Positions 4,496 to 34,172 of a DNA stretch of 64,000 bases are shown one piece after another. A model generated the notes under the pieces. The model searched no databases and was not told the origin of the DNA. It worked only from the letters and a program-made list of their open reading frames with translations. Made by a program: the position numbers and the translations under genes. Every line of letters begins with the position of its first letter. The first letter of the stretch is position 1. The stretch lies in NCBI GenBank assembly GCA_009733575.1, contig ML769396.1, positions 325,217-389,216 on the forward strand, in the 5' to 3' direction. This DNA is from Gymnopus androsaceus JB14 (taxonomy: Eukaryota > Basidiomycota > Agaricomycetes > Agaricales > Omphalotaceae).

Positions 4496-6086
4496 ATGTC
4501 CGAAGGCATTCCTCCCTCTCATAGTCAGAGTATTCACGGTCCATCTCAATCTACCTCCAGCAACAACAACGATGGTGACTGGGACTCAGACCTTACACCG
4601 TCCAGTCATTCATCGGACCACGGAGAAGACGTTGACGAGGAAGACGTTCCCAGTCTGACAGACTCAGGCGATGAGCAAGATTCGAGCTACAATCCTTTCA
4701 CTGCGACATTCACGCTCAAGGTGAAAACGCCAGCTCGGAATATTGTGTGGCGAGAAGCAGTTAGCAAGAAGACGAAAGAAAGGGTTTTTGCTGCTGCTCC
4801 GGCTGGAGATCGCTGTCTTGTTACCCTTGTCAAATTTCCAGCACCTCCAAAGGGGGAGAAATTTCCTTCAGACATAGCCCTATGCCATGCCATCGAGAAA
4901 GCACTGGCTGCGCGGAAACACCAATCTTTGGTGAGGACGATATCTTCCTCTGTAACCTTTGCTGCTCTTTAATGCATTTTTAGATTCGAACAGTAGAATG
5001 GCACTTCGGCATGAAGGCAGCAACGTTCAATCTTAATTCACGTTGGAATATCATTTTATGTACGTCGGAGATTGTTCTGCCTACACTCTCTCACATATTC
5101 TTTCAGTGCGTTTCGATATCCATCCTTGGTTTGATAAAATGGGCTTTGTATTCATTCCTGTCGATATCGAAGTTTTAGAGAAAATGCTGGAAGTAGCCAA
5201 CCACAACGTTGAATGTGTCGAAGCAGATGCTCGCATACGCTACAATCATTTCAGGGTGTGTCTACATTTATGCATACCTATACTAGGTGGAGTGTGTAAT
5301 TGTTTATTTAGGAGCTCAGGCGTCGCACCTATCGTTATCGTCTAGTTAAACTCCATATGGACCCTAGTCGGTCCATTTCCCGCCAACAACTTCTACCTGA
5401 TGGGACCGACAAACCCGGCACCAGACCCGACTGGCATGACTATCCTTATGAGGATGGTGTGATGCAAAATCTCAGAAGTCATCTCAACCCCTTCTATGCC
5501 TTATATCATGCTCGCTATCAGATTAACCAAGCGATTAAACAAGAGTACATTGATCACGATGAATTCTGGGAGCGGAATGATGACCATCCCCTGTTCTATG
5601 CGCTCCAATTGGTTAAGCAAATCACAGAACAGTGGTATGATCCGAACACAGTTCCTGACTCTGAATTTTTGGGAACCGACAGTCCCATCCCATCGCCTAG
5701 CAAATCGAGGTTCTCGAATAACCCAGACTTATTTGCAGAAGGTAAGTATCTACTATATTTCTGACATTCTCATCTCAATTTTCATTGTAGGTCTGGCCGG
5801 TCCTAGTGCTCCTCCTCGTATGGGGCGTTTGACACGATCATCCACACGATCTCAATCCAGTAGTTCGTCTGCGATGTTGGCTGGGGGCTTGGAAGATGTA
5901 TTCTCAAGCAATCAGCCAGCTGCATCATCATCATCCCGTCCTCCAAAGAAGCCGAAAACGAGCGCGAGTGTTGAGATTTTTTCAGGGAATGAGAGGGGGA
6001 AGGCGAAGGCGAGGGTGGCTAAAGTTCCAAGTGATGCAGGCACGAAGCGAACACTTCAGCAGGCTGGGCTGAGTCCGAGTCCGTAG
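4496..6086 (+). CDS. Hypothetical protein, 461 aa, five exons
   Basis: No named family is recognised. The model joins 4496-4930, 4984-5059, 5107-5255, 5312-5741 and 5791-6086; phases agree at every junction. The N-terminus is Ser/Asn-rich and acidic (about residues 1-65). A folded central part follows, with residues such as RTVEWHFGMKAATFNL and FDIHPWFDKMGFVFIP, then YRYRLVKLHMDPSR, and an aromatic acidic stretch (HDYPYEDGVMQNL). The C-terminus is Ser-rich and basic with PPKKPK, a possible nuclear-localisation signal. Single-exon predictions would wrongly start the protein at the internal Met at 5357. A 5'-truncated copy lies at 757-1868. Neighbouring and repeated tRNA-Thr sequences suggest this gene was mobilised only by local segmental duplication. 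Confidence 0.75.
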
Positions 6087-6451
6087 TAGGAGGGTAAGTA
6101 TTTGTAATTAATTGATGTATCTTATGAAGCACAGAATTTTCTTGAAGTATTCAAGTTCTTTGTTGAAGAATCTGCCTGAAAGACTCGGAACATGCTCGTT
6201 GCATTTGGCAGTGGCTGACCACAAACGGACGATAGCAGTTGAAAGTCAAGATTGTCCAGTAATTTGATGCAAGACTGGATTGAAGATTCCGAGATGGGCC
6301 CAAGCGGAATTTGAGTTCTCTGTGACATCTTTACCTCACTTTACCTTGAATCGCAGTTACTACTTCGACTCCCCAAGACACACGCACGCTGTTTTAGCTC
6401 TCTGCTTCTCAAGGGCACATCTAGACTGAAGTTATATTTTATACTACTTAT

Positions 6452-6530
6452 GCCTTCCTAGCTCAAAGGTAGAGCGTTGCACTCCATATACATGCAAAGG
6501 TTGGCAGTCGTCCAATATGGCTAGGAGGCA
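6452..6530 (+). pseudogene. Degenerate tRNA-Thr copy
   Basis: The 5' half is intact (GCCTTCCTAGCTCAAAGG...) but the anticodon loop is changed to CTCCATATA and the T arm to GGCAGTCGTCCAATATGGCT. No TGT anticodon remains and the T-loop consensus is broken. Confidence 0.7.
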
Positions 6531-16427: not shown

Positions 16428-16949
16428 TTGGTGGCTGCAATTGGCGCGTCTCTCTGATTCGTCGGACATTTTCTTACAAAAGTTTTATCCTTTTTATTCT
16501 GTTTCCGTTTCGATTTCTTGTCTTTATTATAAAGTTTCAATTTCATTCTCAACTCCCTCCCTCCTTGAAACGCATCCCACCTTACCGTTTATGATATATC
16601 TCCCCGTAATGACCCATCACGACCTTATTATGACCTTTTCTAAAATTCTTTCCCTGTTCGCCTCTCTGCCTCTCATTATTCGCATCCCGACCATTCGACT
16701 CAGTTTTCTCGAATTCAGTCATCCAATTAATAATCCCTTCCTTCGTTTTCAAAGTCTTATTTTCTTTGTGGTACCAGATGCATCCTCATTCTCATATTTT
16801 CGGAGTCAAATACCAACACCATTGCAATACAACATCTTTGTACATACTTCACATTCTAAAAGATTTCTTAGCATTAGGACCAGCAGTGTTCTTTCATCGA
16901 ATACTGCGACTAAGTAACAAACGGCGGGCTATGGCTATGGCTACCAATT
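16428..16949. repeat. VNX1 downstream region, duplicated at 19383-19840
   Basis: This region serves as the 3' flank of both VNX1 (plus) and the first amidohydrolase gene (minus), so the two genes converge. From about 16458 (GATTCGTCGGACATTTTC) it is repeated with small indels at 19383-19840. No gene is visible. Confidence 0.75.
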
Positions 16950-18360
16950 TTACTCATTCAACTTCAACAGTCCAATCGCCGTCTCCCTCGTAAACTGTCT
17001 CATTTCCTCCCTCGTCAACACCCGCCCCTCCTCAAGCTCATCAAGAAACGCCTTCCCATCCTCCATCTGTACAAACGGATAATCGATTGAATACATCATC
17101 CTCTCCAAACCGATCTCCTTTCGATGGAATTCAAGGAGGGATGGGTTGAACGAGCCGGAACAGGTTTCCCAGATATTGGTGTGGAAGTAGGTTGAGACAT
17201 TGAGGAGCATGGGCATTCCATTGGATTTTTGTTCCGCAAGGGCTATCGGTACATTAAGTATTAGTTTGAAGAAAAATTACACCGACTCCATAGTGCGTAC
17301 ATTTGTCAATGCGATCCAAGTCGGAGGGAATACGTTCTCCCATATGACCTACGATGACTTTTAAAGTCGGGAAACGACTGTGCGGCGTGGACATCAGAGA
17401 GGGAAAGAAAGAACACAAGTAGAGAGAAACCACTCACTCAAAGACTCCATTCGTACACAACCCCAAAACATGAGTTGACAGTGTTGCAGAGAATTCTTGT
17501 GCAGGGCCTTTTAACCACGGCACTTGGGTGTAGAAAAGAGTCGATATGGGTGCGACATTGTTCCGAGGGTGAAAGTAAACTGGAACATCAAGCTCGGTGA
17601 CTGTGTCCCAGAATACGTCGTACTCTGGCTGATAGAAGAATAGAAGTGTATCTGTGCGTAGATGACATCGTTGATGAGAGCAAGTTTCAGAGCATTGTCA
17701 GTACATACACCGTACTTACCATTAGTCTGCTGATAATCATTAACCAGTGCTCCCAGGAATCCCAGTTCTTGTATGGCCCGTCTCAACTCTACTGCCGCTG
17801 CAGAAGCATTGTGCATTGAGAGGGCAGCGAATGCGCCGAATCTCCCGGTGATATTCGGGTGAGAAGAGTCATTGTATATCTGAGCAGCGAGCTGGTTGTT
17901 AAGGCTGATTGCCATTGACTCGGCAGTGGCTGGGTCGGAGATTCCTTGGATGCAGGGGGAGGAGCAGGAGAGGGCCATCTATATGCAATGAATAAAAGCA
18001 TTAAAGATCAATACATTATGTAGACTTACAAAATCGACGCCGTTCTCATCCATACGAGTAAGTCGTTGATCATAGATATCAAAGAGGTCAGAATTGAGCT
18101 CTGCGACGGTTAAACCGGCTTCTGGAACACTGAGCACAGCAGTATGCATTGGTACGCCACGATCATAGTATTGATATAACTCACTTTACACTCAACTCTG
18201 GAATGGTCCATGCCTCTTCTATAGCGATAGAGCCTTTTCCTGTATCGTGCCATTTTATTTTGTGGGTATCGGCGCGCTTTGAGGAGACAGAAGTGATAAA
18301 ATACAGTGTGTGGAGCAGTGCCAGTGCGATAGCCGACATTTGTCCTCGAAGAAAAATCAT
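16950..18360 (-). CDS. Secreted amidohydrolase-2 family protein (2,3-dihydroxybenzoate-decarboxylase-like), copy 1, 372 aa
   Basis: It belongs to the ACMSD/2,3-DHB decarboxylase branch of metal-dependent amidohydrolases, which act without oxidation on small aromatic carboxylates. Six exons on the minus strand (18360-18185, 18129-18030, 17978-17720, 17651-17438, 17377-17301, 17242-16950) keep one frame. Expected metal and active-site residues are present: IEEAW near residue 49, YFHPR (His206), GHMGE (His261) and SIDYP (Asp329). The N-terminus has a hydrophobic signal-like segment (IALALLHTLYFITS), unlike cytosolic family members, so secretion is likely. The substrate is unknown. Three paralogues follow at 24513, 30190 and 32743, and the block 16.88-19.38 kb is nearly identical to 24.44-26.94 kb, implying a recent duplication. 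Confidence 0.85.
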
Positions 18361-19382
18361 GCTAAAATAGTAGCAAGATGTTAGTAAAGCAGTTGATGAA
18401 ACTTTTTAAGGGTTTTTATACCTACCTAGTTCGCAAATATGTCAAGGACTTCGCGGAAAACTGCGGCCATTGAATAAAACTGATACGTTCGGTAAAACTG
18501 GACTAAACTCATCGTTAGCACTTACAGCCTCAAGATCAGTAAACGAGTGCCTGGAGGTTTTCCAGCAGATATTGTAGCATGATTATTCCCAAGACTTATG
18601 GAACAGTTTGATTTTTTAAACCTCTAGTCCTATGAATACATTTCCTTCAATTTTGACTCGATATCGTCAATGATCAACTTACCTGTGGCGAACCTGTGGG
18701 CTGCTTTTAGCGCAAGCTTTTTCATAGCTGTGACAGGAATCTGCAGATGCAGTGCAATTAGCAGAGCGCAGAGCGCGCATGGTTGATATCATTGTCGAAG
18801 TTGGAGGATGAAACGGAGTAAACGCACATCTGCGGGATCATATGATGCCAGGGAAGGGCATGTATATGGCGAATCATCTCAACTGAGAACATTATCGCTA
18901 TGTTTCTGGTCCCATAAACATCATCATTTAACCCGATTATCCATTAATTTTCTGGATGAGTGAAGAATCTCTGACATTCTCAGTGAGAGTAATGCGCCAG
19001 ATGCTTTCCAAAGATTGATTTGCTAACTGGTATCATACCATGAAGATCTAACAAGTTATTAAAGATCACCCAGACTAAGATAGCAAAAAGATTTATAGAA
19101 AACTAGACCACAATACGACGCGGAATCTCATTGACATACAGTACTAACCTTAAAAATCACATCCAATGGTGTCCTTTACCAATCTCTCCAGTAGACCTAA
19201 TTGCCTCGAAAATTCAAATGATTATTTTTAGTTCTTTTTCGAGGAGGTTGTGTTCGATTTGAGTTCCCCTGGACAAAATTATTCGCACGAACACTCTGAT
19301 TTCGGTTGTATCCATCATTGCATTTCGATTTCGGGTATCCGGCCCTACTGCACTGATACAGGCGCTAGAATAACTAATAAAT
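18361..19382. repeat. Upstream region of amidohydrolase copy 1, in the recent duplication
   Basis: No gene is seen in this 1-kb stretch. It is nearly identical to 25923-26937. Its segment 18843-18990 appears inverted at about 27497-27650, and 19165-19255 appears inverted inside 21400-21540 and 27330-27460. These are parts of a dispersed repeat of unknown class. Confidence 0.65.
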
Positions 19383-19840
19383 CTGAATTCGTCGGACATT
19401 TTCTAACAAAGTTTTATCCTTTTTATTCTGTTTCGCGATTTCTTGTCTTTATTATAAAGTTTCAATTTCATTCTCAACTCCCTCCCTCCTTGAAACGCAT
19501 CCCACCTTACCGTTTATATAATCTCCCGTAATGACCCCTCACAAGAACTTGTTATGACCTTTTTCTAAAATTCTTTCCCTGTTCCCTCTCCTCTCATTAT
19601 TCGCATCCCACCACGACTCAGTCTCGAATTCAGTCATCCAATTAATAAACCCTCCCTTCGTTCTCAAATCTTATTTTCTTTGTGGTACCAGATGCATCTC
19701 CATTCTCATATTTTCGGAGTCAAATACCAACATACCACAATACAACATCTTTGTACATACTTGCATTTTCAAAAGATTTCCTAGCATTAGGACCAGCAGT
19801 GTTCTTTCATCGATAGTACTGCGACGAAGTAACAAGCGGG
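19383..19840. repeat. Second copy of the VNX1 downstream region
   Basis: It matches 16458-16905 with many small indels and begins immediately after the end of duplication unit 1, so the units were in tandem. The match stops at GTTCTTTCATCG...AACAAGCGGG and resumes at 24445, on the far side of the candidate RiPP locus. Confidence 0.75.
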
Positions 19841-19850
19841 AAGCCAATGC

Positions 19851-21800
19851 TCACGGACCATCGTCATTGACATTCGGATTGGTATAGGCGTAAGCGGCAT
19901 TGTTGTCTCTCTTCTCGCAGGATAAGTCAGAACTCCAGAATGGAAACCAATGGTCATGGACTAACCTTAGTGGCATCGTCATTGACGTTCGGATTGGTAT
20001 ATGCGTAAGCGGCATTATTGCCTCTCTTCTTGCCAGGATAAGTCAGAACTCCAGAGTGGAACCAATGGTCATGGACTAACCTTAGTGGTATCGTCATTGA
20101 CGTTCGGATTGGTATATGCTAAGCGGCATTATTGCCTCCTCTTCTTGCCAGGATAAGTCAGAACTCCAGAGTGGAAACCAATGGTCATGGACTAACCTTA
20201 GTGGCATCGTCATTGACGTTCGGATTGGTATATGCGTAAGCGGCATTATTGCCTCTCTTCTTGCCAGGATAAGTCAGAACTCCAGAGTGGAAACCAATGG
20301 TCATGGACTAACCTTAGGTGGCATCGTCATTGACGTTCGGATTGGTATAGGCGTAAGCGGATTGTTGCCTCTCTTCTCGCCAGGGNNNNNNNNNNNNNNN
20401 NNNNNNNNNNATCATTGGTCCAAGGGGTACTATCGATGACCCGGAAGTTAAAAAAAAATGTCTATATAGAAAAAGTTTTGCAGTTCTCAATGGATGGCTC
20501 CCGGATTTTGGGAGAATATATTTAAGATATTAAAGAGTCTTTCCATGAGCTTTGGTGATTTTTAAGAGACATTTGGAAGGATACCAGAGGGAGCCGACGA
20601 GACCCTTGAAATTGGCGGAGAAGTTAAAAGAGCGCTTAACGGCAATTGGCAGTGTCTGAAACTGCACTTTTTTGACATTTCTGCTCGCGAAACCACAACC
20701 ACACGTCGGGCACCTTAACAGGCTGGCATTACTAATTATATAAATGTACAAAAGGTGGTGTTAAAATCTTATACCTGCCCGTGAAGTATTTGTGGCTCTA
20801 AAAATCAAGAAGCTCATGTGAACCTGAAAACAGTGTGATTTTGCACAAGTTCAAAAATCCTGAATTTTTTCCTCGCAATATTCCTTCAAAGTAAATAGAC
20901 AGATGCCTTTAAAACATGTACAACACCTTATATTAAAAGTCTTAAGCAGAAAGAGTGCGAGTTGCAAGCACCGCAAGCGATTTACTGTGGTTTTTTTAAC
21001 TTCCGGGCCCTTTTTAACTTCCGGGTCATCGATAGTATGTGAAATAAAAGTATTGGCATCGCATTGTCTTTAAGGTTTATTTGAGCTGGGAAGCTCTATA
21101 TTGGCATATTTTTCCGATTTTATTCAGATTTATACTGTTTATACTACCTACCTTCCTAAAAATTTGGGGGGGAGGGGCGTCTGTTCCAAAGAAAAAAAAT
21201 GAAAATGATGCACAATTAATGGCTCAATTGATTAAGAATAAGGTCAGAGAAAAAAATCATTTTATTTCCCACTAAAGTTCATATGTTGCAGGAATGACTG
21301 ACTCTAGATATAAATGGACTTCATATTTGGATCCAAAACTCATTCAAAACAACATGATGTCAAAAAAAAAATAACATACCACTTGCATTGATCACTGTGA
21401 ATTCAGGTGGAGAAAGTTGATTCAGAGATGCAGGACCCAATCAAACACAACCCCCTCGAAAAAGAGCTAAAGCAAATCATTTGAATTTTCGAGGCAATTA
21501 GGTCTGGAGAGATTGGTAAAGGACACCATTGAGTATCTCTCTCTTCTCGCCAGGGTAAGTCAGAACTCCAGAGTGGAAACCAATGGTCATGGACTAACCT
21601 TGGCGGCATCGTCATCCCCGTAAGTAATAGGGACGCGGTGTTCCAAAGCAGCAGTGTCGCCTTTCTGTTTGTTCTACATACTCAGTCAAAACTCTCACCG
21701 CCTGCATGTAGAAAACATAGTTTACCTTGTTCACCTCTGTGGGAAATGCAACAGTGACACAAACAACAGCAAGTAATACTTGGGATAAAAGGAACTTCAT
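19851..21800 (-). CDS. Candidate repeat-containing RiPP precursor (dikaritin/UstA-like); gapped and possibly interrupted
   Basis: The gene starts at ATG 21800 with a signal peptide (MKFLLSQVLLAVVCVTVAFP). A leader exon follows after a 61-nt intron, ending DDDAAK before a GTTAGT donor. At 20385-19851 five tandem units of about 116 bp each hold a 53-nt GTTAGT...AAG/GAG intron and a 63-nt exon. Each exon encodes Lys-Arg, then a segment with the core YAYTNPNV and the tail NDDATK. The last unit ends NDDGP and TGA at 19853-19851. Dibasic KR sites suggest Kex2 cleavage in the secretory pathway into near-identical peptides. Units next to the gap carry compensating 1-bp indels. Between leader and repeats lie the 25-N gap and an inserted repeat with its own MITE (20411-21540), so leader and repeats may be one interrupted gene or two gene copies. 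Confidence 0.6.
19866..20385 (-). repeat. Tandem array, five units of 115-117 bp
   Basis: The phase-marking motif ATTGACGTTCGG (plus strand) occurs at 19866, 19981, 20096, 20212 and 20329. The consensus unit is 116 bp, which is not divisible by three. Coding is kept only if the 53-nt segment with a CTGAC branch site is removed as an intron. The array runs into the assembly gap, so the true copy number is unknown and probably larger. Confidence 0.9.
20386..20410. other. Assembly gap (25 Ns)
   Basis: A run of 25 N lies at the edge of the tandem array, which is where collapsed repeats are expected. The real length is unknown. Confidence 0.99.
20411..21540. mobile_element. Dispersed repeat copy (partner 26937-27467), containing a nested MITE
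   Basis: Outside the nested MITE the sequence follows 26937-27467 from ATTGGTCCAAGGGGTA to GGTAAAGGACACCATTG. Its right end abuts a partial unit of the precursor repeat (CTCTCTTCTCGCCAGGG), so it appears to be inserted in that gene. The termini CATTGGTCC and CAATGGTGTCC (inverted) resemble weak terminal inverted repeats. No coding capacity is visible. Confidence 0.65.
20430..21035. mobile_element. 606-bp MITE with TA target duplication
   Basis: Terminal inverted repeats begin CTATCGATGACCCGGAAG on the left and read the same inward from the right; the right end has a second TTTTTAACTTCCGGG. TA flanks both ends (20428-20429, 21036-21037). The paralogous sequence at about 26952 (CCAAGGGGTATG) is the empty site with one TA. 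A TA duplication fits a Tc1/mariner-type element. No transposase is visible. Confidence 0.85.
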
Positions 21801-23386
21801 TGTGATATGGATGTATGGAGCTGGTGATACTGCCAATCTCTTACTTAGCTATTTATATAGCAGTTGGTATACAGCAGTTTGGTATCTCGAGAATAATATT
21901 GCATACTATCGAAAGATTGGTTAGATTTGTTCGGTACTTCGAGAAGCTAGGTATGAGAACAACCTTGAATTAGGCATTTCAAGTTCCAACTAACATGCTT
22001 CTTTGAGCCACTGGCAGATGAGCTTCGAGAGGCAGCAGAGTACTAATGCTAGCTTTTGGCTATCTAGTGAACACACAATTTCGTTATAGCTTCCTTCAAG
22101 TTCCATAGATAACGGTGCTTGCCACACCGAATGCTCTAGAACCGGCATTCAGCAATTGGACCATGCCAGTGCCGTGTAATATACCCTTCTCGATCTAAGC
22201 CTTTCACAATTGTGACTCAAAATTTCAGCTTCTCATCCAGACTTTGAAGCCCCGTGTCAGTGCCGAACTAATATTTTTGCCTGAGGTTGGTGACCTTCAA
22301 GAAGCAGCAGTGCGAGCTTAGTAGTGAATACAAAATGTCCTTATACTAGCATAGCTAACGGTGCTTGCCACTCCGAATGCTCTAGAGCCGGTGTATTTGC
22401 AAGCAGAGTGGATAGAGTAAGAATGGTAGATGACACTGATAGTATAAGTAGAGGTTAACAGATAGAGAATTGACATACTATGGTTTGGCGTACAGATAGT
22501 TCAACCTATCATTGAAAATAATGTATCTAGTACTACGGTACTTGCGAGTCTATTCCCTGCGCATTTGCCAGGCCTTATATTAGGTGAACTGAACGCACAT
22601 ATTCACAGTGACTCGGATCATGTTCAGTGTCCGGTGTGAAAAGTGTGTCTGGAAAGAGACACTTGTTGACGAAATCATCTGACTGTTTTAAAAAGCAGTA
22701 GCAGGGTCTGATGGAGCGGAAAGTTATGAGTCCGTTAACACTATTGGGCTTTGAGTTGTTGAGGAGCGTTTGAGATAGAGTGTAAACTCTGAGTCAGAGT
22801 CCGAGCTAACCTCGACTCGCATCTAGCGTCAGGCAGATAACCCCCAGCATGAATAAAAGTCATGCTATTTCCATTCTTGTCAATCTTTTCGAGATCGATA
22901 GTGAGTTTCTTCGGGTTGTGTTCCGTGATACGTGAACTAGAATCAAGGCAGATACACTTCGAGAAGCTGTTGGGAAGTAGCAGAGTAGTCTTAGTAGGTA
23001 TGCTAAATACGTTTACGATTGTGACCCCAAACTTATAGCTCCTTAGCGTACTTTGAAGCCCGATGAACCGAAATTTTGGAGGCAAATAAACTTCGAGAAG
23101 TGTTTGGGAAGCAGCAGAGTAGTCTTAGTAGGTATGCTGAATACGTTTACGATTGTGGCCCCAAACTTTTAGCTCCTTAGCGTTGAAGCCCCGTGTCAGC
23201 GCCGAATCGTAATTTTTGAGGCAGATGAACTTCGAGAATGCAGCAGAGTAGTGCTAGCTTCGTGGTGGTGAATCAGGATACGAAAATTATTAGTTTTTCC
23301 TTCCTACAGCACAAGCTGCACAATGGCTTGGCACTTTCATTCCCATAGTTTAAGAACCTGCCTAGATCGATCTACTAAGGCTAAAC
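21801..23386. promoter_or_regulatory. Divergent upstream region with degenerate tandem repeats
   Basis: This 1.6 kb separates the start codons of the RiPP-type precursor (minus) and the UstYa gene (plus). It is built from diverged repeats. One unit of about 138 bp (ACTTCGAGAAG...GCAGCAGAGTAGT...TTTACGATTGTG) occurs at about 22956 and 23089 with weaker copies at about 22022 and 22290. Another motif (GGTGCTTGCCAC.CCGAATG) occurs at 22110 and 22367. The minus-strand ORF 22741-23085 lies across these repeats and is not supported as a gene. Confidence 0.5.
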
Positions 23387-24367
23387 ATGCCCTTTCAGCC
23401 CAAGATGAGAGAGACCCAAGTTTACGAGCCGCTCCTAGTAGACGACGAGGGATATGATCGACTGGTCGAAACAAAGCCTGAGTGTGACCATAGCTCCCTG
23501 TGCAGAACCATATACTACCTTTCGGGGTAATATTTGTCCTCCTGCTCTCGAACTTGGTATTTCTCGGAAAATTGGTTTACACAAATCATTCTTTGGAGCC
23601 ATTCCTCCTCTATTGTGCGTTTTTTGCTTGAATCCAATATTGAGCGTTTCCTGAACCTGGAGCCTTTTAGCCCCTGCTCAGGACGCAGTAGAATATGAAA
23701 TTGTCAAATTTCACTCGGGACCGTTGAACAACGAAACGGACGACATATACAGCTTGCCGCCTTCCCCAGAAGTTGACCAGGCCTGGCGCGATCTTTATGA
23801 AGGTGAGTACGAGACATACTTTACCCAAATTGACTGATGACCGTGATTCCAGTAGGTGCCGTCGTCGTCACGGCTGACATTGCATCAAGAGTTGTGAATC
23901 GTACTGAAATGAAGGACGATCAGTATGTCTTTGGCATCGACGTCTTCCACCAACTTCATTGTCTAGTACGTTGTCCTTTACGATTCCTGAAAAAAAAATT
24001 ATAACATATCATTCGCGGTTTAGAACAAGATTCGGAAAGCTTTGAGTCCAGGTGAATCAGATTCCTTCCTTCCAGCCATTGGAAATTTGAAGTTTTCTAA
24101 CCTTCACCAGATTACTATGGAAGCAGCATTACCGAGAGCAAAGAAGTTCACGAAGTTCACATGACCCATTGCTTGAACTCAATCCGCCAGTCACTGCAAT
24201 GCAGTGGGGACATCAGTCCGATACCTTTCAATGTACAACCCTTCAAGTTTTCATCTAAATCTTTGTTCCTACCTACATTCAATGTGCTTCATAGCTGCCG
24301 CAATTTTGGAAAGATTCAAGAGTGGACTAGAGAGAGGTGGACAGGTGAACCCCTTGATCTACAGTAA
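23387..24367 (+). CDS. UstYa-like (DUF3328) protein, candidate peptide-cyclising oxidase
   Basis: UstYa-family proteins are membrane-anchored and take part in oxidative cyclisation of fungal RiPPs such as ustiloxin, cyclochlorotine and asperipin. The N-terminus (MPFQPKMRETQVYEPLLVDD) is typical. A transmembrane stretch (VIFVLLLSNLVFLGKLV) is encoded at about 23530-23580 but in another frame, so an intron with an unusual donor or an indel lies near 23465. Later exons are well defined: about 23671-23802 (LPPSPEVDQAWRDLYE), 23856-23965, 24024-24051 and 24111-24367. They carry the two family motifs, HQLHC and HMTHC, each HxxHC, and the conserved ending LHSCRNFGKIQEW. The gene is divergent from the repeat-containing precursor. 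Beyond the N-terminal uncertainty the frame is open. Confidence 0.8.
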
Positions 24368-24512
24368 ATAAGTAGGTCATACATCAATGAGAGGGCAGCG
24401 AATGCGCCGAATCCAAGGGGGTCCAAAAAAAATTAATTTCGTGTGTTCTTTCATCGATTACTGCGACGAAGTAACACTGGCAACCGGCGGGCTATGGCTA
24501 TGGCTACCAATT
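24368..24512. repeat. Junction where duplication unit 2 resumes
   Basis: From 24445 (GTTCTTTCATCGATTACTGCGACG) the sequence again follows unit 1. The same motif is present at 19801, so the RiPP-type locus is bounded by two copies of this stretch of about 40 bp. Confidence 0.7.
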
Positions 24513-25922
24513 TTACTCATTCAACTTCAACAGTCCAATCGCCGTCTCCCTCGTAAACTGTCTCATTTCCTCCCTCGTCAACACCCGCCCCTCCTCAAGC
24601 TCATTGAGAAACGCCTTCCCATCCTCCATCTGTACAAACGGATAATCGATTGAATACATCATCCTCTCCAAACCAATCTCCTTCCGATGGAATTCAAGGA
24701 GGGAAGGGTTGAACGAGCCGGAGCAGGTTTCCCAGATATTGGTGTGGAAGTAGGTTGAGACATTGAGGAGCATGGGCATTCCATTGGATTTTTGTTCCGC
24801 AAGGGCTATTGGTACATCATGTATTAGTTTGAAGAAAGATGTACACCGACGTAGTGCGTACATTTGTCAATACGATCCAAGTCGGAGGGAATACGTTCTC
24901 CCATATGACCTACGATGACTTTTAAAGTCGGGAAACGAATGTGCGGCGTAGACATCAGAGAGGGAAAGAAAGAACACAGGTAGAGAGAAGCCACTCACTC
25001 AAAGACTCCATTCGTACACAACCCCAAAACATGAGTTGACAGCGTTGCAGAGAATTCTTGTGCAGGGCCTTTTAACCACGGCACTTGGTTGTAGAAAAGA
25101 GTCGATATAGGTGCAATATTGTTCCGAGGGTGAAAGTAAACTGGAACATCAAGCTCGGTGACTGTCTCCCAGAATACGTCGTACTCTGGCTGATAGAAGA
25201 ACAGAAGTGTATCTGTGCGTAGATGACATTGTTGATGAGAGCAAGTTTCAGAGCATTGTCAGTACATACACCATACTTACCATTAGTCTGCTGATAATCA
25301 TTAACCAGTGCTCCCAGGAATCCCAGTTCTTGTACATGCCCGTCTCAACTCTACTGCCGCTGCAGAAGCATTGTGCATTGAGAGGGCAGCGAATGCGCCG
25401 AATCTCCCGGTGATGTTCGGGTGGAAGACGTCATTGTATATCTGAGCAGCGAGCTGGTTGTTAAGGCTGATTGCCATTGACTCGGCAGTGGCTGGGTCGG
25501 AGATTCCTTGGATGCAGGGGGAGGAGCAGGAGAGGGCCATCTATATGCAATGAATAAAAGCATTAAAGATCAATACATTATGTAGACTTACAAAATCGAC
25601 GCCGTTCTCATCCATACGAGTAAGTCGTTGATCATAGATATCAAAGAGGTCAGAATTGAGCTCTGCGACGGTTAAACCGGCTTCTGGAACACTGAGCACA
25701 GCAGTATGCATTGGTACGCCACGATCATAGTATTGATATAACTCACTTTACACTCAACTCTGGAATGGTCCATGCCTCTTCTATAGCGATAGAGCCTTTT
25801 CCTGTATCGTGCCATTTTATTTTGTGGGTATCGGCGCGCTTTGAGGAGACAGAAGTGATAAAATACAGTGTGTGGAGCAGTGCCAGTGCGATAGCCGACA
25901 TTTGTCCTCGAAGAAAAATCAT
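24513..25922 (-). pseudogene. Amidohydrolase copy 2, near-identical to copy 1 but with a 1-bp frameshift
   Basis: Exon order and splice sites equal copy 1. In exon 3 the plus strand reads GTACATGCCCG where copy 1 has GTATGGCCCG, one extra base, which turns RRAIQELGF into an early stop (RRACTRTG...). All other exons stay open, including the end GLLKLNE. Because the rest is nearly identical to copy 1, this is either a very young pseudogene or a base-calling error. Confidence 0.8.
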
Positions 25923-26937
25923 GCTAAAATAGTAGCAAGATGTTAGTAAAGCAGTTGATGAAACTTTTTAAGGGTTTTTATACCTACCTAGTTCGCAAAT
26001 ATGTCAAGGACTTCGCGGAAAACTGCGGCCATTGAATAAAACTGATACGTTCGGTAAAACTGGACTAAACTCATCGTTAGCACTTACAGCCTCAAGATCA
26101 GTAAACGAGTGCCTGGAGGTTTTCCAGCAGATATTGTAGCATGATTATTCCCAAGACTTATGGAACAGTTTGATTTTTTAAACCTCTAGTCCTATGAATA
26201 CATTTCCTTCAATTTTGACCCGATATCGTCAATGATCAACTTACCTGTGGCGAACCTGTGGGCTGCTTTTAGCGCAAGCTTTTTCATAGCTGTGACAGGA
26301 ATCTGCAGATGCAGTGCAATTAGCAGAGCGCAGAGCGCGCATGGTTGATATCATTGTCGAAGTTGGAGGATGAAACGGGTAAACGCACATCTGCGGGATC
26401 ATATGATGCCAGGAAGGGCATGTATATGGCGAATCATCTCAACTGAGAACATTATCGCTATGTTTCTGGTCCCATAAACATCATCATTTAACCCGATTAT
26501 CCATTAATTTTCTGGATGAGTGAAGAATCTCTGACATTCTCAGTGAGAGTAATGCGCCAGATGCTTTCCAAAGATTGATTTGCTAACTGGTATCATACCA
26601 TGAAGATCTAACAAGTTATTAAAGATCACCCAGACTAAGATAGCAAAAAGATTTATAGAAAACTAGACCACAATACGACGCGGAATCTCATTGACATACA
26701 GTACTAACCTTAAAAATCACATCCAATGGTGTCCTTTACCAATCTCTCCAGTAGACCTAATTGCCTCGAAAATTCAAATGATTATTTTTAGTTCTTTTTC
26801 GAGGAGGTTGTGTTCGATTGAGTTCCCCTGGACAAAATTATTCGCACGAACACTCTGATTTCGGTTGTATCCATCATTGCATTTCGATTTCGGGTATCCG
26901 GCCCTACTGCACTGATACAGGCGCTAGAATAACTAAT
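25923..26937. repeat. Upstream region of amidohydrolase copy 2 (partner 18361-19382)
   Basis: It is nearly identical to the region upstream of copy 1. No gene is visible. Confidence 0.75.
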
Positions 26938-27467
26938 TCATTGGTCCAAGGGGTATGTAAAAATAAAAATATTCCCATCACGTTGTCTTTGGGGTTTATT
27001 TGAGCTGGGAAGCTCTATATTGGCATATTTTTCCCGATTTTATTCAGATTTATACTGTTTATACAGCCTCCGTCCTAAAAATCTGAGGGGAGGGGGGTCT
27101 GTTCCAAAGAAAAAAAATGAAAATGATGCACAATGGCTCAATTGATTAAGAATAAGCCTTAAGGTCAGAGAAAAAAATCATTTTATTTCCCACTAAAGTT
27201 CATATGTTGCAGGAATGACTGACTCTAGACATAAATGGACTTCATATTTGGATCCAAAACTCATTTACACCCCAAAACAACATGATGTCAAAAAAAATAA
27301 CATACTCCTTGCATTGGTCACTGTGAATTCAGGTGGAGAAAGTTGATTCAGAGATGCAGGACTCAATCAAAGACAACCCCCTCAAAAAAGAGTTAAAACA
27401 AATTTTCGAGGCAATTAGGTCTACTGGAGAGATTGGTAAAGGACACCATTGGGTACCCTTCCTGTGT
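26938..27467. mobile_element. Dispersed repeat copy without the nested MITE
   Basis: This is the partner of 20411-21540; it carries the empty site for the TA-flanked MITE. No coding potential is seen. Confidence 0.65.
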
Positions 27468-28900: not shown

Positions 28901-29720
28901 TCAGGTAATGCCAATGATTTCTGTTGCTGACTTCACTGATGCATTATCCTGGCAGGTGAACTTCAATGGCCTTCATTGACATTGTGGGCATATGGTAAGT
29001 CTTTGATCGACGGTTTCCACTGACTTTCATTGACTGTCCACTATTTTTCCCAGTAAACTTCAACGGTTTTTGTCAAGTACAGAAGGTAGGACCAGTGGCT
29101 TTCGCTGACTTTTCATTGCTTATAGGGCAACATTCGGCGGTTTTCATCGGAGTTATGGGCGTATGAGAGGTCGGGATCAATGGCTTTTCCTGACTGGCCA
29201 TTACTTTTATAGGTGAAGTCCAATGGTTTTCATTGGTATTTGGTGTCTGAAAGGTGATGGCTTTTTCTGACTTTCTGCTGGTTTTTCAGGTGAGTTTCAA
29301 CGGGTTTCATTGAAATTGCAAGTGCATAACAGGTATGTGAATGTCGCCGGTTTTTACTGGATGTATAGCGCAAGTAAAGGTGAGGAACCGATAGTTTTTA
29401 TACGTTAAACTGACGGCTTCACTGATGATTCCCCCGTTTTAGTATGCGAACATCACCGGTTTTCGTTGGATGTACAGCGCAAGTAAAGGTGGGGAACCGA
29501 CGGGTTTGATACCTTCAACTGACGGCTTTCACTGACGATTCCATATTTTAGTACATGGTTTTCGTCGGTTTTCATTGGGGGTGCAGCGATATTGTAGGTG
29601 AGGATCCGATGGTTTCTGCTGCTTAAACCACCAGCTTTTGCTGATGATCCACTCTTTTAGTATATGAATGTCACCGGTTTTCATTGGAGGTACAGCTATA
29701 GTGTAGGTGAAACCTCAATG
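28901..29720 (+). repeat. Array of about eight diverged exon/intron-like modules
   Basis: Units of about 105-110 bp each hold a core such as GTCACCGGTTTTCATTGG and end with a textbook 3' splice region (CTGAT or CTGAC, then TTTTAG or CAG). In the last four units the exon-like part is 46 nt long. Translated, the cores resemble N-x-N-G-F-H-W or N-V-x-G-F-H-W. The 46-nt length does not keep frame, early units contain stops, and no start or signal peptide is visible, so this may be a decayed gene. Confidence 0.55.
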
Positions 29721-30189: not shown

Positions 30190-31558
30190 CTACTCATTCA
30201 ACTTCAACAGCCCAATCGCCGTCTCCCTTGTGAACTGTCTCATTTCCTCCTTCGTCAACACTTGCCCCTCCTCAAGCTCATCAAGAAACGCCTTCCCAAC
30301 CTCCATTTGTATGAACGGATAATCAATTGAATACAACATCCTCTCCAACCCAATCTCCTTCCGATGGAATTCAAGGAGAGAAGGGTTGAACGAGCCGGAA
30401 CAGGTTTCCCAGATGTTGGTGTGGAAGTAGGATGAGACGTTGAGGAGCATGGGCATTCCATTCAATCTTTGTTCATTAAGGGCTATCGGTGAAATATCAG
30501 TTTGAAGAAGAATTTACACCGACATAGTGCGTACCTGTGTCAATGCGAGCCAAATCGGAGGGAATACGTTCTCCCATATGACCCACAATGACTTTCAAAG
30601 TCGGGAAACGACTGTGCAGTGTGGACATCAGAGAAGGAAAGAAACCGCTCAAGTAAAGAAAAACCGCTCACTCAAAGACACCATTCGTACACAACCCCAA
30701 AACATGGTTTGACAACGTTGCGGCATATTCTTGTGCGGCGGTTTTTAACCACGGCACTTGGCTGTAGAAAAGAGTCGATATGGGTGCGACATTGGTCCGA
30801 GGGTGAAAGTAAATTGGAACGTCAAGCTCGGTGACTGTCTTCCAGAATACGTCGTACTCTGGCTGATAGAAGTATAGAAGTGTATCTGTGTATAGATGCC
30901 ATCGTTTTTAGAACAAATTGTTGGTACATATACCGTAGTTACCATTATCATTTCCACTCTGCTGATAATCATTAACCAGTGCCCCCAGGAATCCCAATTC
31001 TTGTACGGCCCTTCTCAATTCAACTGCCGCTGCAGAAGCATTGTGCATTGATAGGGCAGCGAATGCACCGAATCTCCCGGTGATGTTTGGGTGGGCAGAC
31101 TCATTGTATATCTGAGCAGCGAGCTGGTTGTTGACGCTGATTGCCATTGACTCAGCAGTGGCTGGGTCGGAGATGCCTTGGATGCAGGCGGAGACGCAGG
31201 AAAGGACCATCTATATGCATTGAATAAAACAGTAAGGATCAATACAATATGTAGACTCGGAAGGACTCGCAAAATCGACGCCGTTCGCATCCATACGAGT
31301 AAGTCGTTGGTCATAGATATCAAAGAGCTCAGCATTGAGCTCTGCGACTGTCAAACCTGCGATTGTGTCTCCTCCTGTTCCTATGGTACTGAATTCTGGA
31401 ATGGACCATGCCTCTTCTAGAGCGATAGAGCCTTTCCCTGTATCGTGCCATTTTATTCTGCGGGTATCCGCGCGCCTTGAGGAGGTAGAAGTGACCATAT
31501 TAAGCGTATGGAGCGCCAGTGCGATAGCCGACAATCGTCCTCGAAGCAGAAAAATCAT
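30190..31558 (-). CDS. Secreted amidohydrolase-2 family protein, copy 3, 379 aa
   Basis: Five exons (31558-31271, 31210-30943, 30885-30672, 30611-30535, 30482-30190) give an uninterrupted protein. It differs from copy 1 in two ways. The first intron of copy 1 is absent, and the corresponding residues (STIGTGGDTIAGLT) are coding. The next intron starts with GCGAGT instead of GTAAGT, a GC-AG intron if it is spliced. Catalytic motifs IEEAW-like (ALEEAW), YFHPR, GHMGE and SIDYP are intact, as is the N-terminal signal-like segment. It is diverged enough from copies 1 and 2 to be an older paralogue. Confidence 0.85.
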
Positions 31559-32742: not shown

Positions 32743-34172
32743 TTAATAAATGTAATCATTCAACTTCAACAATTCAATCGCTGTCTCTCTCGCAAACTGT
32801 CTCATTTCCTCCCTTGTTAACACATGCCCCTCCTCAAGCTCATCGAGAAACGCCTTCCCATCCTCCATTTGTACGAACGGATAATCAATCGAATACAATA
32901 TCCTATCCAACCCAATCTCCTTTCGATGGAATTCAAGGAGGGAAGGGTTGAATGAGGCGGAGCAGGTTTCCCAGATGTTGGTGTGGAAGTAGCTTGTGAC
33001 GTTCAGGAGCATGGGCATTCCACTGGTTCTTTGTTCGTCAAGGGCTATTGGTGTGTTATTAGTTTGAAGAAGAATGTACACCGACGTTACGTAGTGCGTA
33101 CTTTGTCAATGCGATCCAAGTCGGAGGGAATACGTTCTCCCATATGACCTACGATGACTTTTAGAGTCGGGAAACGACTGTGCGGCGTAGACATCAGAAA
33201 AGAAAGAGCACAAGTAAAGAGAAATGCTCACTCAAAGACTCCATTCGTACACAACCCCAGAACATGAGTTGACAGTGTTACAGAGAATTCTTGTGAGGGG
33301 CCTCTTAACCACGGCACTTGGCTGTAGAAAAGAGTCGATATGGGTGCGACATTAGTCCGTAGGGTGGAAGTAAACTGGAACATCGAGCTCGGCGACTGTG
33401 TTCCAGAATACATCGTACTCTGGCTGATAGAAGAATAGAGTGTGCGTAGAATGACATTGTTGATGTAGCAGTTTCAGAGCATTGTCAGTACATACACCGT
33501 ACTTACCATTAGTCTGCTGATAATCATTAACCAGTGCCCCAAGGAATCCCAGTTCTTGTACAGCCCGTCTCAACTCTACTGCTGCTGAAGTAGCATTGTG
33601 CATTGAGACGGCGGCGAATGCGCCGAATCTCCCGGTTATGTTCGGGTGGGAAGACTCGTTGTATATCTGAGCAGCGAGCTGGTTGTTGACGTTGATTGCC
33701 ATTGCCTCAGCAGCGGCTGGGTCGGACATTCCTTGGATGCAGGGGGAGGCGCAGGAGAGGACCATCTATACGCAGTGAACATTAACGGTCAATACAATTG
33801 TATACAATATGTAGACTCGGAAGGACTTGCAAAATCGACGTCGTTCGCATCCATACGAGTAAGTCGTTGATCATAGATATTAAAGAGGTTATCATTGAGC
33901 TCAGCGATTGCTGCGGCTCCTCCTCCGACTCTGAGCAAAGCAGTATGCATTAGTACGCCACGATTATAGTATTGGTATGCATGTAGTCTAACTCACTTTG
34001 AACTCGACTCTGGAATGGTCCATGCCTCTTCTATAGCGATAGAGCCTTTCCCTGTATCGTGCCATTTTATCCTGTGGGTATCGGCGCGCGCTGCGGAGGT
34101 AGAAGTGATAAAATACAGCGTGTGCAGTGCCAGCGCGATAACCGACAGTCGTCCTCGAAGCAGGAAGACCAT
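32743..34172 (-). pseudogene. Amidohydrolase copy 4, decayed
   Basis: The paralogue has the copy-1 exon layout, including its first intron, and the second intron begins GCAAGT (GC-AG type). Two lesions are visible. An extra T at about 33360 shifts the frame directly after the FHP motif (reading FHPTD and stop). The acceptor before the exon with YQPEYDVFW is lost, because the AGATA of the other copies is deleted near 33440. The C-terminus is altered to LLKLNDYIY. With two lesions it is more likely a real pseudogene than copy 2. Confidence 0.75.

Follow-up and report, generated by a model that had tools for sequence, protein, structure and literature searches.

Does a mushroom-forming fungus carry a gene for a crosslinked, repeat-derived peptide of the dikaritin type, and in what state is that gene? 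The question is raised by a 64,000-nucleotide stretch of the Gymnopus androsaceus JB14 genome (C14:325217-389216; genome of 83.3 Mb in 934 contigs), which is called the window throughout. In a preliminary description, a repeat precursor with the core YAYTNPNV was recognised next to a UstYa gene, and the locus was proposed to make a new cyclic peptide. The host is indeed a basidiomycete, as stated there, and belongs to the Omphalotaceae (Agaricales). With a probability of roughly 0.75, we read the window as holding a rearranged, probably decaying member of a group of UstYa-paired, Kex2-type precursors in which each core is placed on its own symmetric mini-exon. These mini-exons are 39-90 nt long and the introns between them 49-67 nt, with one or two cores per exon in one locus. 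This layout and its recurrence in the genome go beyond what had been described. All introns are predicted, with donor and acceptor motifs picked by hand locus by locus.

The precursor and UstYa genes of the window

The repeat precursor lies on the minus strand. Its tandem repeat spans 19859-20384 with a period of 116, 4.6 copies and 95% matches in Tandem Repeats Finder (TRF). Each 116-bp repeat is composed of a 63-nt phase-0 exon and a predicted intron of 53 nt (52 in one unit), which gives one core per exon, and YAYTNPNV is preceded by Lys-Arg (KR). Because 116 is not divisible by 3, removal of the introns is required for the cores to be read in one frame. The array introns begin with GTTAGT, end with AG and contain CTGAC, which would presumably fit a branch site.

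The gene opens with a leader exon (21726-21800) that reads MKFLLSQVLLAVVCVTVAFPTEVNK, is followed by a GTAAAC donor and has a signal peptide as judged by eye only. Exon 2 (21599-21664, 66 nt, KGDTAALEHRVPITYGDDDAAK) is a divergent first unit bordered by AG and GTTAGT, and the 53-nt intron 2 (21546-21598) is 92-95% identical to the array introns over pieces of 77-79 bp. Only the start of exon 3 is present (KREI, 21532-21545), as it is truncated by the end of an element with terminal inverted repeats (TIRs). The array itself (20385-19851) comprises four units and a terminal exon, three of these five being intact: unit 2 (20197-20259, KRGNNAAYAYTNPNVNDDATK) and unit 4 (19966-20028), both 63-nt exons, and the terminal exon (19851-19913), which encodes KRDNNAAYAYTNPNVNDDGP and a stop codon. 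The other two carry paired single-base indels that keep the length at 63 nt. In unit 1 (20313-20375; -1/+1) the core is out of frame, and in unit 3 (20081-20143; +1/-1) there is a stop. The leader and the KR-preceded core of the preliminary description stand, but the precursor is not one readable unit, because an intron is needed after every core. That the core is without a known relative is borne out: none of 338 candidates in the protein database, sharing common short words and 0.55-1.75 times the query in length, matched at E<=1. No further copy of the array was found in the genome; the 19-base start of its introns occurs exactly only at the five window introns and with two mismatches at two sites elsewhere.

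The UstYa gene is divergent from the precursor at a distance of about 1.6 kb, and here the coordinates agree with the pairing reported earlier. It has five exons on the plus strand: exon 1 (23387-23614), for the cytosolic part and membrane helix, exon 2 (23671-23802), exon 3 (23853-23965), exon 4 (24024-24051) and exon 5 (24111-24367). A six-frame search of the whole genome with PF11807 matched 23888-24337 (E 3.3e-23; 3.5e-23 on repeat) and part of exon 2. When exons 2-5 are spliced, E falls to 4.2e-42 (144.9 bits vs a curated cut-off of 25), covering profile positions 55-220 of 220. Two HxxHC motifs are important in the UstYa/DUF3328 family and both are found: HQLHC (23948-23962) in exon 3 and HMTHC (24158-24172) in exon 5. 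The profile match thus confirms an assignment that had been made by inspection.

In the database this gene is entered as P0001, which is 99% identical, is labelled 'partial' and also aligns with exon 2. The nearest relatives in other named species are from Mycena crocata, M. rebaudengoi and M. pura (66-71% identity), and one relative, P0002, had no match among solved structures at E<=0.01. Comparison with P0002-P0004 places a frame shift in exon 1 near 23523-23530. P0002 and P0004 have their cytosolic part and helix in a single frame (CMSGALVVLLISN in P0002), whereas their window counterparts, YYLSG and VIFVLLLSN, fall in two different frames. Sequence resembling a membrane helix is therefore present, but out of frame with the start of exon 1. 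This break is either natural or a sequencing error.

Recurrence and frame constraint of the mini-exons

The PF11807 search returned 51 UstYa exon matches in the genome. In total, 24 UstYa neighbourhoods were compared, several of which share one contig; 20 stretches of about 9.9 kb each were taken first, and three more of 5 kb were taken later as a test, with matches on C371, C445, C342, C437 and C159 left out of the survey. The controls were 15 stretches of the same genome, 85 kb in total. With an array formally defined as at least three dibasic repeat units, arrays are present in 7 of the 24 neighbourhoods and in none of the 15 controls. By this measure, the tandem KR repeats of the window exceed chance. 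Six formal arrays are mini-exonic (window, L023, L024, L027, L036 and L048) and one, L028, is classical. L022 is a further, degenerate mini-exon array below the formal threshold, recognised by TRF and by hand. In this survey of one genome, 8 of 24 UstYa neighbourhoods therefore have a repeat precursor, seven of them mini-exonic, and all eight have a UstYa match no more than about 2 kb away. At least two of the seven mini-exon arrays are partly broken, but others in this genome keep the layout in better shape than the damaged-looking window copy.

Tandem repeats of 104-139 bp were found by TRF in L022, L023, L024, L027 and L036, and each repeat consists of a short exon with KR and a predicted intron of 49-67 nt. 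The translated units are ARTVPEPDNVFAAKYTTLDKREE in L023, IPDPDESFNNKYAKRVE in L024, KRDSSSAASATTTPLTPPLIFAKEAWEA in L027, AALEVPQPLAVFKRTIDNDPAE in L036 and TRTVPEPDSLFNVGYFKREE in L022, where two of three units are frame-broken. At L023 (5898-6347), four successive donors are GCGAGT, giving GC-AG introns, and the fifth is GTGAGC. L022, L023 and L024 resemble each other in leader and core and are all located on contig C5; they are therefore counted as paralogues and not as independent cases. Introns are of phase 0 in the window and L022-L024, of phase 2 in L027 and of phase 1 in L036 and L048. With one phase common to all mini-exons of a locus, each of them could be skipped without loss of frame.

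The three later loci were chosen by the authors after the claim had been formed, and one of them, L048, has a new array. Here, a leader-like MQQLIFLIAILSIPAMVQGQ accompanies six complete mini-exons of 39, 42 or 78 nt and five 55-nt introns, with units that include AELGISFKR and DELSPELEKSFKR. L047 and L049 have no array, either by a looser scan or by the formal definition. Across 15 UstYa loci without mini-exon arrays, the looser scan yielded only L028 and a pair in L029, which is stop-interrupted on one strand. L028 (3470-3830, minus strand) has the core EEDTIAFSAGPDGTWLKKR and four dibasic sites in one continuous frame with a 57-nt period, about 0.9 kb from UstYa.

The exons behave as coding sequence. 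Their lengths are multiples of 3 in 5/5 cases in the window (two via compensating indels), 5/5 in L023, 3/3 in L024, 6/6 in L027, 7/7 in L036 and 6/6 in L048, and in only 1/3 in L022. Of 20 donor-to-donor steps across five arrays, 18 have a length not divisible by 3. Variable exon columns fall at third codon positions in 42 of 77 cases (p 7.6e-5). For this count, L022 and L048 were set aside, as were both indel-bearing units of the window, the L023 unit of 66 nt and the first, longer unit of L024. In addition, one frame runs from the leader through the array exons in L023, L024 and L036 under the predicted splicing.

Homologues are found for one array. For the repeat region of L027, five annotated Lentinula proteins were matched (E 5.2e-30 to 1.0e-5, among the best 8000 word-sharing candidates scored); these have IFAK(E/D)-W repeats with many KR sites missing and leaders that by eye resemble that of L027. 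No Gymnopus protein for L027 or for the window precursor was found in the protein searches, though the Gymnopus UstYa is present there. Separately, an inspection by eye showed that L. edodes P0052 is without one whole IFAK-type repeat that is present in P0051. This one-repeat difference would fit one repeat per exon, as if a single exon had been skipped or lost.

Disruption, neighbouring genes and competing readings

In the window as assembled, three things lie between the leader with exon 2 (21800-21599) and the array (20385-19851): part of a TIR element, a miniature inverted-repeat transposable element (MITE) and an assembly gap of 25 N (20386-20410). The right part of the TIR element (20411-21531) is homologous to 26938-27452 and encloses the MITE-like element (20428-21037; 610 bp, 27-bp TIRs, TA on each side). 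Counted by hand, the MITE matches 38 further genomic places, with 67 matches listed for its segment when small end pieces are included. The left part of the split TIR copy occupies 19163-19378. In the twin copy, which spans 26723-27452 and has 52-bp TIRs, the point at which the two parts adjoin is 26937/26938. The interval 19379-20410 falls inside the split element and contains the array, the gap and a stretch that is a 90% copy of 16453-16924. On either side of the cassette is one copy of a 2.5-kb direct repeat (16886-19378 and 24443-26937, 98.1% identity) with an amidohydrolase-like gene and the left end of the TIR element. The split is either a real rearrangement with decay or a misassembly. 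As assembled, the precursor is divided by transposon and gap and UstYa exon 1 is frame-broken, and the claim that this locus makes a cyclic peptide is not supported for it in this form.

The tyrosinase, methyltransferase or P450 genes that the preliminary description had suggested looking for in the wider cluster did not emerge. No tyrosinase, methyltransferase, P450 or major facilitator superfamily (MFS) domain was found in six-frame, exon-level Pfam scans of 10-40 kb at E<=0.001, from which very short exons could escape. The only domains in that interval are UstYa, Amidohydro_2, Pkinase, PK_Tyr_Ser-Thr, UBA_2, AdenylateSensor and Na_Ca_ex. Amidohydrolase-like copies (PF04909) lie on the minus strand at 16953-17282, 24516-24866, 30193-30498 and 32755-33084. 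A peptide of the window amidohydrolase matches seven places in the genome (E<=0.001). Four of these are in the window near UstYa and one, on C155, is some 4 kb away from a different UstYa match. Five of the seven have a UstYa match at a distance of about 9 kb or less, and the amidohydrolase may belong to the pathway. Two further repeats were noted in the window: a 1.5-kb direct repeat near its left end (756-2264 / 4976-6483, 98.9% identical) and a tandem array at 29333-29710 (109 bp, 3.5 copies, 74% matches by TRF).

In an intact member, splicing would join the mini-exons in frame and the signal peptide would direct the precursor into the secretory pathway. Kex2 would then cleave after each KR, with Kex1 trimming the basic ends, and the adjoining membrane-bound UstYa protein would crosslink an aromatic side chain of the core. 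This residue would be Tyr in YAYTNPNV, which offers two, and Tyr, Trp or Phe elsewhere. By analogy with the dikaritins, intact Gymnopus loci would make crosslinked peptides.

Several observations weigh against the proposal of decayed and intact mini-exon precursors. Sixteen of the 24 UstYa neighbourhoods have no array, and the window precursor is without any relative in the protein search. Every intron is predicted from splice motifs chosen by hand for each locus: in L023, four of five units require GC-AG introns, and in L024 the donor chosen for the second unit lacks GT, with a GTGGAT 6 nt upstream that is likewise in frame. L022 is largely frame-broken, the last complete L036 unit contains a stop, and the four 90-nt L027 units taken alone show no third-position excess (6, 6, 5). 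The controls are weak, as nine of the 15 are short (2.4-3.6 kb) and six come from the window, two of those overlapping by 1 kb; one control, L015, has a single repeated pair, under the formal threshold. Lastly, misassembly may account for the split in the window gene.

This last point leads to a reading in which the window locus is intact and working, and the transposon placement, N gap and frame breaks are assembly errors in repeats. The gap does adjoin the array, the small indels are single bases, and the TIR copy is split exactly where its twin continues (26937/26938), as could result from a scaffolding error. However, the junctions at 21531/21532, between the element and exon 3, and at 19378/19382 lie in N-free sequence, and the UstYa frame break is outside the repeats, which makes an intact locus improbable. 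We hold it to be similarly unlikely that the peptides are linear Kex2 products and that the neighbouring UstYa proteins act elsewhere. The KEP (Kex2-processed repeat protein) peptides of four agaricomycetes are linear or minimally modified in the accessible part of PMC9769878, and three of the seven mini-exon arrays have no core Tyr (L027, L036 and L048). On the other hand, the Tyr-less cores carry Trp or Phe, and the proximity of all eight arrays to UstYa has no counterpart in the 15 controls. A more radical view takes the repeats for non-coding satellite DNA in which KR frames arise by chance. They are tandem, some units are broken and, since the DNA itself repeats, the opposite strand also qualifies as dibasic in the window, L024, L027 and L036. 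This view is rejected and its chance put close to nil, given the third-position excess, exon lengths in threes with free intron lengths, one frame from leader to array and the annotated Lentinula homologues. A rearranged member of a recurrent mini-exon group is consequently the reading taken forward.

Comparison with known systems

The KEPs of Agaricomycetes (PMC9769878, PMC6339444 and PMC7329392) also have a secreted precursor, repeated cores and dibasic sites. They differ in that the accessible parts of these papers describe no exon per core, and in that the Gymnopus arrays adjoin UstYa. Indeed, no description of a one-core-per-exon layout was found in the literature searched, which was mostly outside subscription journals. 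A text find showed the words 'intron' and 'exon' to be absent from PMC7329392, PMC6339444, PMC12048977 and PMC7099791, and in the available part of PMC9769878 'intron' occurs once, about cDNA cloning. In our genome, L028 shares with the window a leader-like frame, a repeated core and a nearby UstYa gene, but has no introns between its cores.

Most known examples are ascomycete, as the preliminary description had noted and as agrees with the accessible part of PMC7329392, where DUF3328 neighbours are given for 30.1% of ascomycete vs 6.1% of basidiomycete KEPs. The KEP survey in PMC6339444 scanned protein catalogues, as far as its available text goes, and in Pleurotus 16 UstYa-like genes, six of them developmentally expressed, are reported in the accessible part of PMC8893723. 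Should the precursors of basidiomycetes be divided into exons of 39-90 nt, the scarcity of UstYa-linked precursors could in part be an annotation blind spot, as gene-finding programs may miss this layout; RNA-aware mining can test this. Symmetric exons would also let splicing regulate core number and choice. Tentatively, and with more doubt than belief, we suggest that one core per exon is common among UstYa-paired precursors of mushroom-forming fungi, that many of them thereby escape the mining of protein catalogues, which adds to their reported scarcity, and that the choice and number of cores used may be governed by alternative splicing.

The closest comparison is with the dikaritins, namely ustiloxin B, phomopsin, asperipin-2a, victorin and possibly the epichloecyclins. 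According to the accessible part of PMC6514808, UstA has 16 KR-flanked cores, and ustQ, ustYa and ustYb are required for the first ustiloxin intermediate. The UstQ/PhomQ-like tyrosinase of the ustiloxin/phomopsin type was not found in the 10-40 kb scans of the window, and the absence there of a methyltransferase and an MFS transporter is a further difference from dikaritins. In the same part of PMC6514808, the four-gene asperipin cluster is also described without a tyrosinase, and asperipin-2a needs one UstY-type protein, AprY. The victorin ring forms via a C-terminal Phe (PMC9233826, in its accessible part); in L036 and L048, Phe is the last core residue before KR. A secreted precursor with tandem dibasic cores, as in dikaritins, is present in the predicted anatomy of L023, L024 and L036 and is split in the window. 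The Gymnopus loci and the dikaritins are alike in a predicted signal peptide, tandem KR cores, adjacent DUF3328/UstYa gene and aromatic core residue, and what sets the Gymnopus loci apart is a basidiomycete host and cores that are each predicted to lie on an exon of their own.

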